Assembly (NCBI GenBank): GCA_944325865.1
Contig: CALVBS010000004.1
Span: 1-64,000 of the forward strand
DNA: 64,000 nucleotides
Reading direction: 5' to 3'
DNA from: Candidatus Gastranaerophilales bacterium
GTDB taxonomy: Bacteria; Cyanobacteriota; Vampirovibrionia; Gastranaerophilales; Gastranaerophilaceae
The position numbers and the translations under genes are program-made. A model generated the notes under the pieces. That model saw only the letters and a list, made by a program, of their open reading frames with translations. It ran no database searches and was not told the origin of the DNA. This document shows positions 36 to 62,217 of the stretch, piece by piece. How positions within the stretch are numbered: the first letter of the stretch is position 1; the number at the start of each line of letters is the position of its first letter.

Positions 36-704
36 TCAGAGACTCAGCAAATTAACTTTCAAATCCGCATAAAGTTCCCCAAATTCCTTGTTTCTCCGCC
101 ATATTCCCTCGGCGAGTTTTTGAGGCAGGTCAACTTTATTTGAATTGTGTGAAGTAAACCTTGTTAAATAGGAGTAAACTTTCTTGAATTCCCGTTCTTC
201 AGACTTAGTAAATGCTTTTTCATCAGGGCTTTGAAATGGATTTTCACAAACAAAAACTTGATTGTCGTAAATATAAAAATGGAATTCCGTATCAAAAAAC
301 ATTCTGTTTCTGCATTGTTGCGGATATTTTCCATACAAAAAGTTTAATTTTTTAGTCTGATGTTCGTAAATCAGTTCTCTAAAGATGTTATAAATTTTTG
401 AAGATTGATCTTCGCCTATATCTAATATTTTGGCGACCTTGTATGCCGGAATTGAAAGACAGAAACAACGAATCGCAGTATCAATAATTTGTTTAGGATA
501 AAAAGACAGTATAGACGGCTTTTTACTTATTTGTTTTTTATTGTATAAATATAATCCGTTTCTTAGCGTAAGTTTTCCCTCTTGAACCAGAGTTAAGAGA
601 AGTAACTCTAATACAGACTCGTCAACATCTTCAGCAATAGTCGAAATCTCATCAAGTGTAAATTTATCCAACCTTCTGCAAAGCCTTAATACTCGTTCTC
701 TCAT
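36..704 (-). CDS. Uncharacterised third protein of the Mu-like transposition operon
   Basis: I do not recognise this 222-residue protein. Residues 1-50 look like a winged helix (KFTLDEISTIAEDV followed by a short hydrophobic helix and a GKLTLRNG turn). A second helix-turn-helix-like stretch lies at about 75-100 (AYKVAKILDIGEDQSSKIY). The C-terminal half is rich in aromatics (FFDTEFHFYIYD) and ends in conserved-looking basic helices. It is the last visible gene of a leftward operon, and its start overlaps the end of the ATPase gene by 41 bases, which implies translational coupling. Its position after transposase and ATPase suggests a DNA-binding accessory, regulator or target-choice factor, but this is inference. 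It has no zinc ribbon of the TniQ kind. The element continues off the left edge, so its full gene content is unknown. Confidence 0.6.
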   Translation of the reverse strand: MRERVLRLCRRLDKFTLDEISTIAEDVDESVLELLLLTLVQEGKLTLRNGLYLYNKKQISKKPSILSFYPKQIIDTAIRCFCLSIPAYKVAKILDIGEDQSSKIYNIFRELIYEHQTKKLNFLYGKYPQQCRNRMFFDTEFHFYIYDNQVFVCENPFQSPDEKAFTKSEEREFKKVYSYLTRFTSHNSNKVDLPQKLAEGIWRRNKEFGELYADLKVNLLSL

Positions 705-25706: not shown

Positions 25707-25762
25707 ACTAATAGGATAGCTCAAATTCACTTATAGTGCAAAATTTTACGATTTGTTAAATA

Positions 25763-26491
25763 TTAAAGTTTATACGGATAATCATCTTTGAACTCCCAGT
25801 TATCATAAAGCAACAGTGTTGAACAATATGCAGCAATCGTTTTACACTTTTGTAATGCATTTTCTCTTGTAGGTGCATTTACAGGAATATACGAACACCA
25901 GTGTTTATTATTTCCGCAATGCGTTTTTTGATATGGTTCCTTGCATAACAAAAATGTAAACCTGTCATATCCGCTTTTATTAGGATTCTTATTCCCATTG
26001 ATGTCTATAGTCATATCAATACAATTACCATTATGGAAATAAACAATAGAACCATCAAGCATAATTATCCTTAGCTCATAATTCTTCATCTCTTCTCCCT
26101 CTTCCACTTCTTCAGCCTTATCAACAGAAAGATATTTTAAATACGGTCCTATGTATGACATAAAGTAATTATAACTTGCCTGTGCATTGGCAAGTTTGTT
26201 TTCATCAGCATCATCCCCCTTATGTTCACCTTCCTTATTCCAGTACATGACTTCAGCATTATCAATTTCAGAAAGCATAATTGCCTGCTGCATTGTGCTG
26301 TAGAATTTTTTTAATCGGGATACAGCCTCTTTCTGCTTATATGAAGAAATAACCGACGGCAAAGTCATTGCTGCAACAACACCGATTATACCAAGTGTTA
26401 TAAGAACTTCAGCCAAAGTAAATGCTGGTACTCGTTTCTGTTCAAAGACTTCTGAAAAACCTCGCAACATGGTAACTGTATTCCTTTTCAT
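25763..26491 (-). CDS. Type IV prepilin-like protein (module 1)
   Basis: This 242-residue pseudopilin-like protein has a class III leader. After 23 residues comes AFTLAEVLITLGIIGVVAA, with F at +1 and E at +5, but Ala instead of Gly at -1. Helix alpha-1 continues to about residue 70 (SRLKKFYSTMQQAIMLSE). The globular part has GNCIDMTIDINGNKNPNKSGYDRFTF, a D-x-N-G loop that could bind calcium, several cysteines, and ends in YDNWEFKDDYPYKL. The ending matches two other pilins of the window. AGGAGG stands 8 bases before the ATG. A small helix-turn-helix gene diverges from it across about 110 bases with a promoter and inverted repeat. The export machinery is not in this neighbourhood. Confidence 0.9.
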   Translation of the reverse strand: MKRNTVTMLRGFSEVFEQKRVPAFTLAEVLITLGIIGVVAAMTLPSVISSYKQKEAVSRLKKFYSTMQQAIMLSEIDNAEVMYWNKEGEHKGDDADENKLANAQASYNYFMSYIGPYLKYLSVDKAEEVEEGEEMKNYELRIIMLDGSIVYFHNGNCIDMTIDINGNKNPNKSGYDRFTFLLCKEPYQKTHCGNNKHWCSYIPVNAPTRENALQKCKTIAAYCSTLLLYDNWEFKDDYPYKL

Positions 26492-26530
26492 AACAATATC
26501 CTCCTATTACAATATTAAATTAATACATAT

Positions 26531-26565
26531 ATTATAAACATATTCATTTAATATAGTCAATATTA
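26531..26565 (-). promoter_or_regulatory. Promoter and candidate operator of prepilin module 1
   Basis: On the minus strand TTGACT (26560-26555) and TATAAT (26536-26531) are separated by 18 bases. The -35 box is embedded in the inverted repeat TAATAT-AGTCA-ATATTA (26549-26565), a plausible site for the divergently encoded regulator. Confidence 0.5.
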
Positions 26566-26601
26566 TTTAATTATAAAGTCATTAATTTCCCTAAACATGC
26601 A

Positions 26602-26826
26602 ATGATATTAAGTATGAGAATTGTTACCGAATTAAAAGAAATTTTATACAGCAAAGGTCTTACGTTAAAATATGTTGCGGAAGAACTCGGTAAAAAAGTC
26701 GGCAAAACTTATACACTTGCAAATCTCTCAAATAAATTACGTAACGAAACAATTACATACAGAGAGATGAAAATTATAGCAGATATCATAGACTGCACTC
26801 TTGAAATTACTCCCAACAAAAAATAA
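26602..26826 (+). CDS. Small helix-turn-helix regulator (module 1)
   Basis: This 74-residue protein (70 if it starts at the ATG at 26614) is little more than a DNA-binding domain. LTLKYVAEELGKKVGKTYTLANLSNKLRNETITYREMKIIADIIDCTLEITP has the helix-turn-helix order of small XRE-like repressors. The recognition helix is probably TLANLSNKLRN. It diverges from the prepilin gene, and the gap holds an inverted repeat over the pilin promoter, so repression of the pilin and of itself is a reasonable inference. No clear ribosome site is seen for either start. Confidence 0.75.
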   Translation: MILSMRIVTELKEILYSKGLTLKYVAEELGKKVGKTYTLANLSNKLRNETITYREMKIIADIIDCTLEITPNKK

Positions 26827-26847
26827 AAGGGACATGAAAGTCCCTTT
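26826..26847 (+). terminator. Hairpin after the module 1 regulator
   Basis: AAAGGGAC and GTCCCTTT enclose ATGAAA directly after the stop codon; the T-run behind it is only three bases. Confidence 0.55.
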
Positions 26848-26879
26848 AGCAAATGGAGTTTGAAATATTAACGCAAAAA

Positions 26880-33669: not shown

Positions 33670-35058
33670 TTATACAAGATACTTTTGTAATGTAGTCTTA
33701 TCAAAAACTTCAATACTCTCCTGTGAATGAATAAATATCATACAGCTTAAAAGAGATTTCAGAGTTTCAAAATCGGAAAATGCCATTTTATTCCGTAAAT
33801 CTTCCATATTATTTGCCAGAAATTCCATGATAATAATCTTATTATCAAAAACCAGACCTGAAAAGTAATCAAAAATCTCTTTAGTCTTGACCCCTTCAAG
33901 ATAGATGATATCAGGTGATTGGAACTCGATAAACCTTGACGCTTTATCCATATTAAAGCTTACATTTTCATTAAGTTCACACTGGTTTACACCTTTCAAA
34001 TTGTATTTTGCAATACTTTCAAGAGTCATAATATTTTTGTTTTTATATCTTGAAGCTATTTCCAGTAACAGAGAATAGATAATGTGAGTTTTTCCGCTTA
34101 ATGGAGACCCGCAAACAAGGATAATTCCTGGTTCATTAATGGCGTAATTAATTGTCTTCAGCTGACTGTCTGTTTTTAATATTGAGGATAACTTTTTAGG
34201 AGGTTTATAAATTTTAAGAAAAATTCTCTCGCCCATAATGGTCGGGAAGGTGGAAACACTTGCTATTAAGTCAATATCATCCACTTTAAATGATAATTTC
34301 CCGAGCTGTGGCACTTCGGAAACAGAAGGATCAAGCTCAGCAAGAGTTTTTAACTTTGCAATAAATGATGAAATCAAAACATTAGGAATAGTACCTTTAA
34401 CGTTAATTTCGCCGTTAAGTTTAAAATTCACAGCTAATCCAGAATCTTCATGTTGAAATGTTATTTCATGAACATTTTCCAGAATTGCCTGTTTAAGAAT
34501 TGCACGGATAATTTTTTGTATATGATTATCGCTCAAATCCTCACTGTGGAGTTCTTCTCTCCAGTCAAAATTAATATATTCACTATTGGTGTATATTTCA
34601 CCTACTGTAATATCAGTTTTATAATATTCGTCAATCTTTTTCAAAATACTTGCTTCCGTAGCAATAACAGGTTCAATAGAACATTCCGCAGATTCAATTA
34701 TTCTGTCTATTGCAAATAAATCCAGAGGATCGGCCATTGCAACAGTCAGAGTATCTTCAATTTTAAACAGCGGAATAATCCTGTATTTTTTTGCATCGGA
34801 AAAATTTATAAACTTAAGACAATTTTTATCAAGAGTATAATCATCAAGATTAACAGACGGAATATGCAGTTTACTTTCAAGAAATTTTATAATTGTCTCC
34901 TCTGTTAAAATTCCTGAATTTATAAGAGCCTGACCGATATTAATATTTTGTGCGGACGCAATTTCCTCCGCCTGTTCTATTGTTTCATAAGGCACAAGTC
35001 CGGCTCTGACTAAATCGTATTTCAATTTTTCAAGAGTTTTGTTAGTAACGGTTTCCAT
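33670..35058 (-). CDS. Divergent PilB/GspE-like type II/IV secretion ATPase
   Basis: This 462-residue protein follows the PilB/GspE layout: a GspE N-terminal domain (about 1-150, with GQALINSGILTEETIIKFLESKLHIPSV) and an ATPase domain from about 180. The active-site motifs have drifted. Walker A reads CGSPLSGKTH near residue 313 instead of GPTGSGKTTT. The Walker B region reads PDIIYLEGVKTKEI instead of PDIILVGEIRDxET. The four-cysteine zinc motif of PilB is absent, and the C-terminal part is short. It may be a regulatory or inactive paralogue of the pilus motor. A response regulator gene lies 10 bases upstream on the same strand, so the pair is probably co-expressed. Confidence 0.78.
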   Translation of the reverse strand: METVTNKTLEKLKYDLVRAGLVPYETIEQAEEIASAQNINIGQALINSGILTEETIIKFLESKLHIPSVNLDDYTLDKNCLKFINFSDAKKYRIIPLFKIEDTLTVAMADPLDLFAIDRIIESAECSIEPVIATEASILKKIDEYYKTDITVGEIYTNSEYINFDWREELHSEDLSDNHIQKIIRAILKQAILENVHEITFQHEDSGLAVNFKLNGEINVKGTIPNVLISSFIAKLKTLAELDPSVSEVPQLGKLSFKVDDIDLIASVSTFPTIMGERIFLKIYKPPKKLSSILKTDSQLKTINYAINEPGIILVCGSPLSGKTHIIYSLLLEIASRYKNKNIMTLESIAKYNLKGVNQCELNENVSFNMDKASRFIEFQSPDIIYLEGVKTKEIFDYFSGLVFDNKIIIMEFLANNMEDLRNKMAFSDFETLKSLLSCMIFIHSQESIEVFDKTTLQKYLV

Positions 35059-36463: not shown

Positions 36464-36497
36464 ACAAACCTGTAAAATACAAATGCAGGTTTGTTTT
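36464..36497. terminator. Terminator between helical protein and module 2 regulator
   Basis: ACAAACCTG and CAGGTTTGT form a 9-bp stem with a 13-nt loop and TTTT behind it on the plus strand. The convergent regulator gene ends at the same place. Confidence 0.7.
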
Positions 36498-36720
36498 ATT
36501 CATTTAAATGAAAAATATTCTCAACAGGAACACCGAGAGAATCAGCAAGAACAACTACCTTTTTTATAGTAAGGTTCTGTTCCCCGCGTTCTACTTTACC
36601 TATGTAATTCGTATGAACATTGGCAAGTTCTGCAAACTTTTCCTGCGACAGTCGTCTTTTTATTCTTTCGACACGAAAATTCAATCCGATTTTCTTTAAA
36701 ACATCAATGTAATCAGACAT
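36496..36720 (-). CDS. XRE-family regulator (module 2)
   Basis: This 74-residue repressor-like protein starts at the ATG at 36720 (MSDYIDVLKKIGLNFRVERI). A longer frame upstream would run through the pilin promoter and is rejected. The canonical XRE domain is LNFRVERIKRRLSQEKFAELANVHTNYIGKVERGEQNLTIKKVVVLADSLGVPVENIF. It diverges from a prepilin gene, with only about 70 bases between the two starts. That gap contains a strong promoter and a palindrome across its -10 box, so it very likely controls the pilin and itself. Confidence 0.9.
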   Translation of the reverse strand: MSDYIDVLKKIGLNFRVERIKRRLSQEKFAELANVHTNYIGKVERGEQNLTIKKVVVLADSLGVPVENIFHLNE

Positions 36721-36737
36721 ATGCAAATCATATACTA

Positions 36738-36781
36738 TTGACAATGTGCATTCTATACTATTATAATAGTGTATCAGGAGG
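36738..36781 (+). promoter_or_regulatory. Promoter, operator and ribosome site of prepilin module 2
   Basis: TTGACA (36738-36743) and TATAAT (36762-36767) are 18 bases apart. The -10 box sits inside the perfect palindrome ACTATTATAATAGT (36757-36770), which extends with one mismatch to 36754-36773. AGGAGG follows at 36776-36781, so the leader would be very short. Confidence 0.65.
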
Positions 36782-36789
36782 TATTTATT

Positions 36790-37524
36790 TTGACTAAAAT
36801 CAGAATTACACATCGAAAGAATATCCTTAAAAGTACATCCCAACTAGCATTTACCCTTGCTGAAACCCTTATCACATTAGGAATAATCGGTATAGTAGCA
36901 GCAATGACCCTACCGGCACTTATTGGCAAATGGCACAAGCTTGTCACGGTTAACAAGTTAAAAACGGCATATTCCTTGATATCACAGGGAATAGAACGTG
37001 CGGAATCCGACTATGGAGCGGTAAAAGATTGGACATTTCGTGATAAAGATGATTTTACAAATAAATACATAAAACCGTATTATGATGTGCTAAAAGTATA
37101 TGAAAAAGGGGATTTACCGGCAGGATTTCATCATTACTGCATGGACGGCACAACATGTGACAATTACGGAAGCTTTAAAAATGCACAAAAAATTATCCTC
37201 AAAAATGGCATGATGCTCTCTATGGATATTGATACAACGACAGAAAACTATGTTTGGCTTACAATCACAATAGATTTAAACGGATTAAAAAATTTCAGCA
37301 CTTACGGTAAAGATACATTTATTTTTTCTCTTGATCCTACAAATGAAAAACTTCTCCCTTATGGCCTGGGCAGAGTGACAGGCGAATTTACAAATACAAA
37401 CAGGGATAAATCAAGAAAGGCTTTAATGTCGGGAGAAACCAGAAGCTGTACTCGGGCTGGACTATTTTGCGGTGCTGTAATTTTTCTTGACAACTGGGAA
37501 ATTAAAGATGACTACCCGTGGTAA
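36790..37524 (+). CDS. Type IV prepilin-like protein (module 2)
   Basis: This 244-residue pseudopilin-like protein starts at TTG 36790, eight bases after AGGAGG; an earlier GTG at 36769 would overlap the ribosome site. The leader of about 19 residues is basic, then comes AFTLAETLITLGIIGIVAAMTLP with Ala at -1, F at +1 and E at +5. The globular part has four or more cysteines, a WLTITIDLNGLKNFSTYGKDTFIF segment equivalent to the D-x-N-G loop of the other two, and a C-terminus of LDNWEIKDDYPW. It lacks the final Y-K-L of the other pilins. The divergent XRE gene is its probable regulator. Confidence 0.9.
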   Translation: MTKIRITHRKNILKSTSQLAFTLAETLITLGIIGIVAAMTLPALIGKWHKLVTVNKLKTAYSLISQGIERAESDYGAVKDWTFRDKDDFTNKYIKPYYDVLKVYEKGDLPAGFHHYCMDGTTCDNYGSFKNAQKIILKNGMMLSMDIDTTTENYVWLTITIDLNGLKNFSTYGKDTFIFSLDPTNEKLLPYGLGRVTGEFTNTNRDKSRKALMSGETRSCTRAGLFCGAVIFLDNWEIKDDYPW

Positions 37525-61243: not shown

Positions 61244-61900
61244 TTATCTTAATTTATAAGGATAATCATCCTTAATTTCCCAGCCGTCATACATCAAAAG
61301 AGCTGAACAGACAAGCGGATTAGATTTGCATTCATTTAGGAGTTGAGTTCTTGTACACCCGGTTCTTCCGCAGCCAGGAAAATATGCATCAAAAGGCATT
61401 TCTTTATTTCTGAGTAAACCTGCATTATATCCTTCTTCTGTACAAAGAAGAAAATCAAACATATCAACTCCAAGTGTATTAGGGGCTTTTTGACCGTTGT
61501 AGTCAAAATTTATATCCAAACAATACCCGCTGCTTAGCTTAATCTTAGAACCATCTGCAAACATTATATCAATAGTCGTTCCACCATTATCTATTTCTGT
61601 AGTTTTCTTCAAATATTTTGCAAGATACGTATTATAAAAAGCAAGAACCCCCTCTCGGTTACCCGCGTTACCACCGTTACCGTCATCAATTCTAGGCGAT
61701 TTTGACCAGTAATACGCCGGTCCGTTCTCCAGTTCAGAAAGTTTAACCGCCTGAGACATAGTTGTGTAGAACTTTTTCAGTTTAGCTTCAACTTCCTGTT
61801 TTTTATAATTATGAACAATTTGCGGCAGAGTCATTGCGGCAACAACTCCTATTATACCTAGTGTTATTAAAACTTCCGCAAGAGTGAATGCTTTTTTCAT
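61244..61900 (-). CDS. Type IV prepilin-like protein (module 3)
   Basis: This 218-residue pseudopilin-like protein has the shortest leader: MKKA, then FTLAEVLITLGIIGVVAAMTLP, with Ala at -1. Helix alpha-1 runs on through EAKLKKFYTTMSQAVKLSE. A Gly/Asn-rich loop lies near residue 73, and SSGYCLDINFDYNGQKAPNTLGVDMFDFLLC is the D-x-N-G region. Four or more cysteines follow, and the end is YDGWEIKDDYPYKLR. TGGAGG precedes the ATG. The divergent XRE gene lies across a 113-base gap that contains a 10-bp inverted repeat. It is the closest of the three to module 1 in both leader and tail. Confidence 0.92.
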   Translation of the reverse strand: MKKAFTLAEVLITLGIIGVVAAMTLPQIVHNYKKQEVEAKLKKFYTTMSQAVKLSELENGPAYYWSKSPRIDDGNGGNAGNREGVLAFYNTYLAKYLKKTTEIDNGGTTIDIMFADGSKIKLSSGYCLDINFDYNGQKAPNTLGVDMFDFLLCTEEGYNAGLLRNKEMPFDAYFPGCGRTGCTRTQLLNECKSNPLVCSALLMYDGWEIKDDYPYKLR

Positions 61901-61930
61901 TTGGCCTCCAAAATATAAATAATAATTAAA

Positions 61931-61956
61931 TAATATTATATAACTGTATAATATTA
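61931..61956. promoter_or_regulatory. Inverted repeat between module 3 genes (candidate operator)
   Basis: TAATATTATA and TATAATATTA flank TAACTG, a perfect 10-bp inverted repeat in the gap between the prepilin and XRE genes. The gap is very AT-rich, so the significance needs the comparison with the other modules. Confidence 0.5.
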
Positions 61957-62013
61957 TTATATATTACAATAATAAATTTTACAAGAGTAAGCCTACAATG
62001 CAAAAATTTTATT

Positions 62014-62217
62014 ATGATACGAAATAAACTTTCTGAAATAATGGGACGCAGACGTTTGAATATGGCTGAAGTTGCAAGAATTGCAGGACTTACACATGTC
62101 ACGGTATTCAGAATTTATCATGATAAAACAAAAACAATAGAACTTGAAACTTTGAACAAATTGTGCAATGCTTTAAACTGTAGAATTCAGGATATATTTG
62201 AACACATTCCTGACTAG
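62014..62217 (+). CDS. XRE-family regulator (module 3)
   Basis: This 67-residue protein is a bare helix-turn-helix domain: IRNKLSEIMGRRRLNMAEVARIAGLTHVTVFRIYHDKTKTIELETLNKLCNALNCRIQDIFEHIP. It resembles the small XRE proteins that act with helix 3 (HVTVFRIYHD) in DNA contact. It diverges from the module 3 prepilin gene and is followed by two small lineage genes on the same strand. An inverted repeat stands in the gap. Confidence 0.92.
   Translation: MIRNKLSEIMGRRRLNMAEVARIAGLTHVTVFRIYHDKTKTIELETLNKLCNALNCRIQDIFEHIPD

Follow-up and report, generated by a model that had tools for sequence, protein, structure and literature searches.

Divergent arrangements of a small regulator gene and its target are familiar from phages of the CI/Cro type and from the C proteins of restriction–modification systems, in which an autoregulated XRE repressor and the target gene are transcribed away from each other. 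Large families of prepilin-type proteins are likewise known from other phyla, an example being the DUF1559 proteins of Planctomycetes, and we know of no divergent private regulator attached to families of that type. Allelic replacement at the pilA locus has reportedly taken place in Vibrio cholerae, Acinetobacter and Pseudomonas, Adams 2019 and Piepenbrink 2016 being the pertinent papers that PMC8088505 lists. In Neisseria gonorrhoeae, the pilE/pilS system comprises a single expressed gene accompanied by some 19 silent copies.

Here we analyse a 64,000-bp stretch of DNA (the window) from the 2.03-Mb genome of a Gastranaerophilales relative (G000), in which pilin-like genes are paired with small regulator genes. 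There are far more than three of these pilin–regulator modules, and what is new is that they are slots with swapped bodies. A search of open-licence papers turned up neither an account of scattered pilin slots under private repressors nor a paper on DUF6613, the Pfam family of these pilins, and the open-licence literature on Gastranaerophilales described ordinary pil genes only.

Three divergent modules in the window

The first-pass annotation had drawn attention to a pilin-like gene and a helix-turn-helix (HTH) gene facing away from each other across about 110 bases at 25763-26826, and to the same layout, with different regulator sequences, at 36.5 and 61.2 kb. All three modules are present in the sequence, the second and third at 36496-37524 and 61244-62217 with unrelated regulators, and their features are as follows (coordinates are those of the window).

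25731..26879, no strand: whole recN/flagellar-gene slot (slot 1), filled, empty, pilin-deleted or otherwise filled in relatives
25763..26491, minus strand: slot 1 pilin-like gene of 242 aa, scoring above the N_methyl and DUF6613 cut-offs
26357..26425, minus strand: conserved pilin start of slot 1, about 69 bp beginning at the cleavage motif (AFTLAEVLITLGIIGVVAAMTLP)
26531..26560, minus strand: slot 1 pilin promoter of consensus type, TTGACT (26555-26560), 18 bp, TATAAT (26531-26536)
26549..26565, no strand: slot 1 candidate operator TAATATAGTCAATATTA, covering the -35 box
26614..26826, plus strand: slot 1 regulator HTH1, 70 aa, XRE/lambda-repressor-like helix-turn-helix
36496..36720, minus strand: slot 2 regulator, 74 aa; Pfam HTH_3 4.4e-11
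36738-36743 and 36762-36767: slot 2 promoter, TTGACA and TATAAT, respectively
36757..36770, no strand: slot 2 inverted repeat ACTATTATAATAGT, covering the -10 box; p=0.16 alone
36790..37524, plus strand: slot 2 pilin-like gene, starting with TTG and preceded by AGGAGG; DUF6613 1.2e-10
61244..61900, minus strand: slot 3 pilin-like gene, 218 aa; N_methyl over cut-off
61929..61958, no strand: slot 3 inverted repeat AATAATATTATA-n6-TATAATATTATT, immediately upstream of the pilin start; p=0.03
62014..62217, plus strand: slot 3 regulator, 67 aa; Pfam HTH_26 5.3e-20

Judged by their coding sequences, the slot products are type IV pilin-like (prepilin) proteins. They carry a prepilin motif with E5 and a hydrophobic helix, the slot 1 and slot 3 pilins exceed the N_methyl cut-off, and the three window pilins score 30.9, 42.1 and 31.9 bits against DUF6613 (PF20318; gathering score 24.3). 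The hexapeptide AFTLAE, which had been taken for a leader, was misassigned: under the usual prepilin rule its first A occupies position -1, and the mature protein begins with F (residue 1) and has E at residue 5. The slot 1 pilin thus reads A(-1) F1 T L A E5, has two conserved C-terminal cysteines and terminates in DNWEFKDDYPYKL. Its structure model (pLDDT 85.8) has a helix at residues 2-56 followed by strands; Foldseek with this model retrieved no pilin, only noise, and VIA-align gave weak matches only (PAK pilin Z 4.5, FimA 3.6, PilE 3.0). On the minus strand the gene is preceded by AGGAGG at 26500-26505 and starts with ATG at 26491.

With respect to the slot 1 regulator, the open reading frame as called spans 26602-26826 on the plus strand, 110 bp from the pilin, and its homologues begin at 26614, which gives an intergenic gap of 122 bp. 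HTH1 falls below the Pfam HTH_3 cut-off and has a phrog_3 repressor match at 5.6e-4. Its AF2 model (pLDDT 91.7, four helices) looks like an XRE domain, with HipB, BldD, DdrO and C.BclI among the structural neighbours.

In terms of machinery, the genome encodes one PilB-like ATPase, two PilT-like ATPases and one prepilin peptidase, and pilC lies beside a pilin slot. That slot region (L067/L261, G000 C9:5700-10100) has a divergent weak HTH gene and lies near both pilC and the only PilB-like ATPase gene. The window itself contains, at 33670-35058 on the minus strand, a 462-aa open reading frame with a partial T2SSE-type ATPase match (1.1e-25).

Size of the pilin family and pairing with regulators

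The genome contains 53 AFTLAE-coding sites in 52 genes and none of the reversed pattern. AFTLAE is invariant across the 36 own pilins from which we built a profile, although these were selected by AFTLAE itself; the profile detects 80 pilin genes or fragments in the same genome. In public data the nearest relatives are without exception Candidatus Gastranaerophilales assemblies, or records that carry a wrong label and cluster with these assemblies by sequence. AFTLAE copies range from 0 to 190 per genome of the same family, with a wide spread even within one genus, and reach 15 at most, and usually none, in other families of the class. Two genomes of the same genus, G005 and G008, have one or two AFTLAE genes only; rapid loss or replacement of an entire set is therefore possible.

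Some family members depart from the standard form. In a few proteins the AFTLAE mature start is repeated in frame, as two or three copies, through 54-bp repeats (e.g. AFTLAEVFSPYFLNQRKIAFTLAEVLITLG), which gives two or three possible prepilin cleavage sites per protein; examples are L033 (G000 C1:72972-73043), L134-L152 in G113 and G132 C32:479-604. Pilin pseudogenes occur at L031:5500, L050 and L057 in G000 and at L225 and L257 in the close species G001, and their lesions are single stops or internal deletions with both ends kept, one deletion running across a 15-bp direct repeat.

HMMs built from the genome's own regulators place a divergent gene for a small DNA-binding protein at 41 of the 52 AFTLAE genes (79 percent), leaving about a fifth without a regulator. 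Among open reading frames of at least 180 aa, 36/47 pilins are paired compared with 4/317 others (Fisher 2e-35). As these HMMs were seeded from the same loci, the independent count is the one that uses Pfam only, with two regulators added by eye: a divergent HTH gene lies within 500 bp at 47 of the 80 pilin genes or fragments, where 0.8 would be expected randomly. The orientation is nearly uniform (47 divergent, 0 same-strand upstream, 1 same-strand downstream), and the pilin-facing genes make up 47 of the 82 HTH genes counted in the genome. The regulators are of several unrelated kinds, namely short and long HTH_3, HTH_26, a weak HTH class near DUF6471 and ParG-type ribbon-helix-helix; that of L046 appears AbrB-like by eye only and has no Pfam match. 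Upstream of the pilin, L050 and L069 have a common intergenic repeat with CCCCCTTTACAAAAGGGGG. L050 also carries the reading-frame remnant PPFVKGGRGDF, and similar-looking remnants precede some regulator-less pilins (L036, L038, L056).

Whether AFTLAE genes in related genomes also face a small HTH gene had been proposed as the decisive comparison, and its outcome is mixed. Two further genomes of the same genus have 14 of 21 (G006, 67 percent) and 8 of 20 (G007, 40 percent) AFTLAE genes paired, and genus g18 has 17 of 20 (85 percent), against 0/9, 0/10 and 2/12 in G132, G113 and G103, genomes of three other genera with 114 to 190 AFTLAE sites each and hardly any divergent regulators. Among named records, 17/48 loci are paired. 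The pairing belongs to certain lineages: it is common in genera g1 and g18 and absent or rare in g19, g11 and g9, in which AFTLAE genes are no fewer. We therefore rejected it as a universal trait of the family. Because pilins have expanded in genera that lack the pairing, the regulators are not needed for pilin expansion.

Candidate operators

An inverted repeat at p<0.05 occurs in 12 of 39 own intergenic regions, where about 2 would be expected. The first-pass annotation had pointed to a palindrome over the slot 1 -35 box. That palindrome exists, but as evidence of an operator we rejected it, since the best inverted repeat of the region is not above local chance (p=0.74 against shuffles). The pattern TAATAT-n5-ATATTA occurs three times in 0.52 Mb of the genome. 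The slot 1 pilin promoter is unchanged in G011, G004 and G009; the 17-bp palindrome is identical in G011, from which the pilin is deleted, and is not clearly kept in G004/G009. The slot 3 inverted repeat is single-copy in the same 0.52 Mb.

At several orthologous slots the symmetric arms are kept and the centre is altered, the kept sites being ATTGGCT-n3-AGCCAAT, AAAATTTGCA-n4-TGCAAATTTT, a double CCCATATATGGG, ATT[A/C]GTTAA-n4-TTAACGAAT and [A/G]CATGTTTCC-n4-GGAAACATG[T/C]; in the last of these, across three species, the outermost base is altered on both sides together. Each such site is limited to its own slot within the 0.52 Mb examined. At several other slots neither the inverted-repeat search nor the orthologue comparison found a symmetric site. 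Most of the conserved sites are located downstream of the -10 box and ahead of the ribosome-binding site, or overlap the promoter, a position that fits repression, and the retention of slot-specific symmetric sites beside the pilin start suggests that this repression would be private to each slot.

An unlikely alternative is that the regulators activate, or answer a specific signal, such that each slot is an inducible pilin with the same architecture. This would suit those inverted repeats that precede the -35 box or directly adjoin it (such as the one at -80..-49 of L057, where TTGACT stands at -49), as well as the site at slot C5:38802, which is 119 bp from the cleavage-motif codons and near the regulator gene. 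The location of most conserved sites nonetheless speaks for repression, as do the many pilin promoters that are already near consensus (TTGACA-17-TATAAT), and the small regulators have no sensor domain.

Exchange of pilin bodies behind fixed regulators

The part of the module that is exchanged between species is the pilin body, not the regulator or the pilin start. Across 74 pairs, bodies do not track regulators in similarity (Mantel r 0.036, p 0.12). Specifically, L037 and L192 have regulators that are 87 percent identical and unrelated bodies, whereas L042 and L199 have bodies that are 71 percent identical and regulators at 34 percent. DNA homology at swapped loci runs from the neighbouring gene through the regulator, the promoter and the first 62 to 71 bp of the pilin, is then lost, and is regained at or just around the stop codon, ahead of the same downstream gene (L037/L192, L059/L188, L044/L163). 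The pilin start of about 69 bp is thus the 5' boundary of body exchange in slots other than slot 1.

Between G000 and G001, 14 slots are comparable: 8 bodies are conserved, 5 are replaced and 1 is deleted to an 8-residue stump. Divergence at the replaced slots is 9, 12, 18 and 36 percent at -300..-150, -150..-20, 0..69 and 75..225, respectively. Some conserved slots have a first 69 bp that diverges more than both flanks (at L031/L249, 14/69 vs 4/126 and 5/150), which suggests local recombination, with modest statistical weight (pooled p 0.04). The clearest case is slot C5:38802, where seven species hold five unrelated bodies. Here identity is 74-98 percent in the intergenic region, 83-100 percent over the N-terminal 23 residues and 79-94 percent in the 3' flank, compared with 24-37 percent for the bodies, apart from the pairs G004/G009 (94 percent) and G006/G012 (78 percent). 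A regulator-backed body of G000 has a 98 percent identical counterpart in G001 that sits one gene away and has no regulator.

Recent exchange inside one genome was not seen in G000, where even the most similar bodies reach an identity of about 58 percent only, which lends no support to frequent switching within a genome; local mosaic patches do occur at the gene start between G000 and G001. Two candidate cases were set aside. L248/L044, considered as a regulator replacement behind a conserved body, proved to have a diverged homologue of the same regulator, and L054/L230 was dropped as a swap because two different slots had been compared.

These results bear on the proposal of lineage-specific, individually switched pilins, each with a divergent small regulator. 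The pairing itself is far above chance, with a distinct conserved symmetric site, the putative operator, for each slot studied. Individual switching would be our reading of these arrangements, and the switched unit would be the slot rather than any particular pilin, because the body is exchanged behind a conserved regulator.

The recN slot in relatives

Slot 1 sits between recN and a flagellar gene, and this position illustrates several states of a slot. G004 and G009 retain both genes (HTH 81-83 percent, pilin 46 percent, recN about 89 percent). G011 retains the HTH gene and promoter with the pilin shrunk to ATGAAAAACGACGGCTTTACTTTAGCATGA, and the site is empty in G010 and G007 (108 and 131 bp). 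In G001, where recN is 98-99 percent identical, other genes lie between the same flanking sequences. The genus has HTH1-family loci at 20 places; the gene opposite is a pilin at 12 of them, a pilin stump at one and a different exported-protein gene at one, and the remainder are cut off or have no such gene opposite. The genes at the G001 site (L120/L259) encode a membrane protein and an exported protein, and the different exported-protein gene lies opposite HTH1 at L104 in G012, so slots may take non-pilin cargo.

Filled sites, empty sites and a pilin-less regulator at a single locus might also be expected if regulator and pilin were a selfish pair, of the toxin–antitoxin or phage-repressor cargo type, spreading and kept by addiction or by silence on arrival, and the regulators are indeed HipB-like and phage-repressor-like. 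We regard this as quite improbable. Bodies and regulators are decoupled in transmission, which led us to reject pairs travelling as fixed units even though both genes are absent together at the recN site. The pilin has been lost with the regulator retained in G011, and relatives appear on only 2 of 2.9 million viral contigs. Toxin–antitoxin genes, moreover, normally form one operon, and with hardly any pilin pair co-oriented we rejected assignment to the type II systems.

The body swaps could alternatively be chimeras of metagenome assembly, joined at the conserved pilin start: many of the relatives' genomes are metagenome assemblies, and the 69-bp start is common to paralogues. The 69-bp starts of the genome's own slots mostly differ at no fewer than 9 positions, however (L050/L069 being the exception), and so offer little exact sequence to misjoin. 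The 3' junctions fall in unique flank sequence, one slot is swapped across several independent assemblies, and the two exceptional pairs at C5:38802 each have one swapped body common to two species in the same slot, all of which makes this explanation very improbable. Least credible is a chance or annotation effect, with pilins merely inserted beside pre-existing HTH genes in divergent intergenic regions and no functional link. For it one may cite the roughly 80 HTH genes of the genome and the relatives that have pilins without HTH genes, but against it stand the Pfam count and its lack of same-strand upstream genes, the survival of operator-like sites beside the pilin start when bodies are exchanged, and the joint absence of regulator and pilin at the empty recN site.

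A proposed model of individually repressed pilin slots

The reading that we favour, and consider probable, is that each module is one of dozens of dispersed expression slots, individually repressed, in which the pilin body can be exchanged; both repression and display are inferences. What the comparisons establish is the pairing, the structure of the slots, the independence of regulator and body, and the retention of symmetric sites particular to each slot. The fixed part of a slot comprises the small regulator gene, the divergent promoter region with its slot-specific symmetric operator and the first ~23 pilin residues. Counted from the cleavage motif, these residues would form the membrane and assembly helix, a constant start serving the shared export and assembly machinery (PilB-like, PilT-like, PilC and prepilin peptidase), such that all slot products may be exported through a single PilB/PilC/PilD set. 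The exchangeable part is the rest of the pilin, predicted to make up the globular domain that is exposed.

In each slot, the regulator is most likely a repressor of that single pilin, and probably of itself too, bound to its own operator next to the pilin promoter or ribosome-binding site. Private repression could then lead to a subset of pilins being shown per cell. Over evolutionary time, homologous recombination, bounded by the conserved 5' segment and the 3' end, would replace bodies, while slots are also emptied, broken or refilled. The benefit may lie in a diversified surface, of use against phage or host or in adhesion, for instance. A fuller version is a surface-display system of a previously undescribed kind, in which dozens of private repressor–operator slots fused to a constant pilin start and loaded with interchangeable bodies by recombination would provide combinatorial, heritable control of displayed subunits; we advance it tentatively, as slightly less likely than not.

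If this is correct, one gut bacterial family holds pilin genes by the tens, each under separate control and with an exposed part that is swapped as a cartridge would be. Such a system would offer a new explanation of surface diversification in an uncultured gut commensal facing phages, hosts or neighbours, and would provide a natural set of dozens of distinct small repressor–operator pairs.

Comparison with known systems

The slots resemble the DUF1559 families in being a lineage-specific expansion of prepilin-type proteins, and differ in their Pfam family, which is DUF6613. With phage CI/Cro repressors and C proteins they have in common a small HTH gene divergent from its target and symmetric operators over the promoter. 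In contrast to those systems, the slots are repeated dozens of times per genome, use unrelated regulators for one protein family and have an exchangeable target body.

As in pilA allele exchange, one locus combines a conserved pilin start with strain-specific bodies, although pilA is a single major-pilin locus without a private repressor and the slots are tens of parallel loci. There is also a likeness in gene structure to pilE/pilS of Neisseria gonorrhoeae, in which the coding region has a conserved N-terminal part, the variable rest contains two conserved cysteines, and bodies are exchanged by recombination (PMC12871193). Membership in neisserial-type antigenic variation was nonetheless rejected, as the genome does not have one expression locus backed by silent copies that lack promoters; the slot pilins are dispersed, and most have a start codon and ribosome-binding site, often with a near-consensus promoter. 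Where pilE/pilS relies on silent copies, the slots are dozens of complete dispersed genes, most with a regulator of their own.
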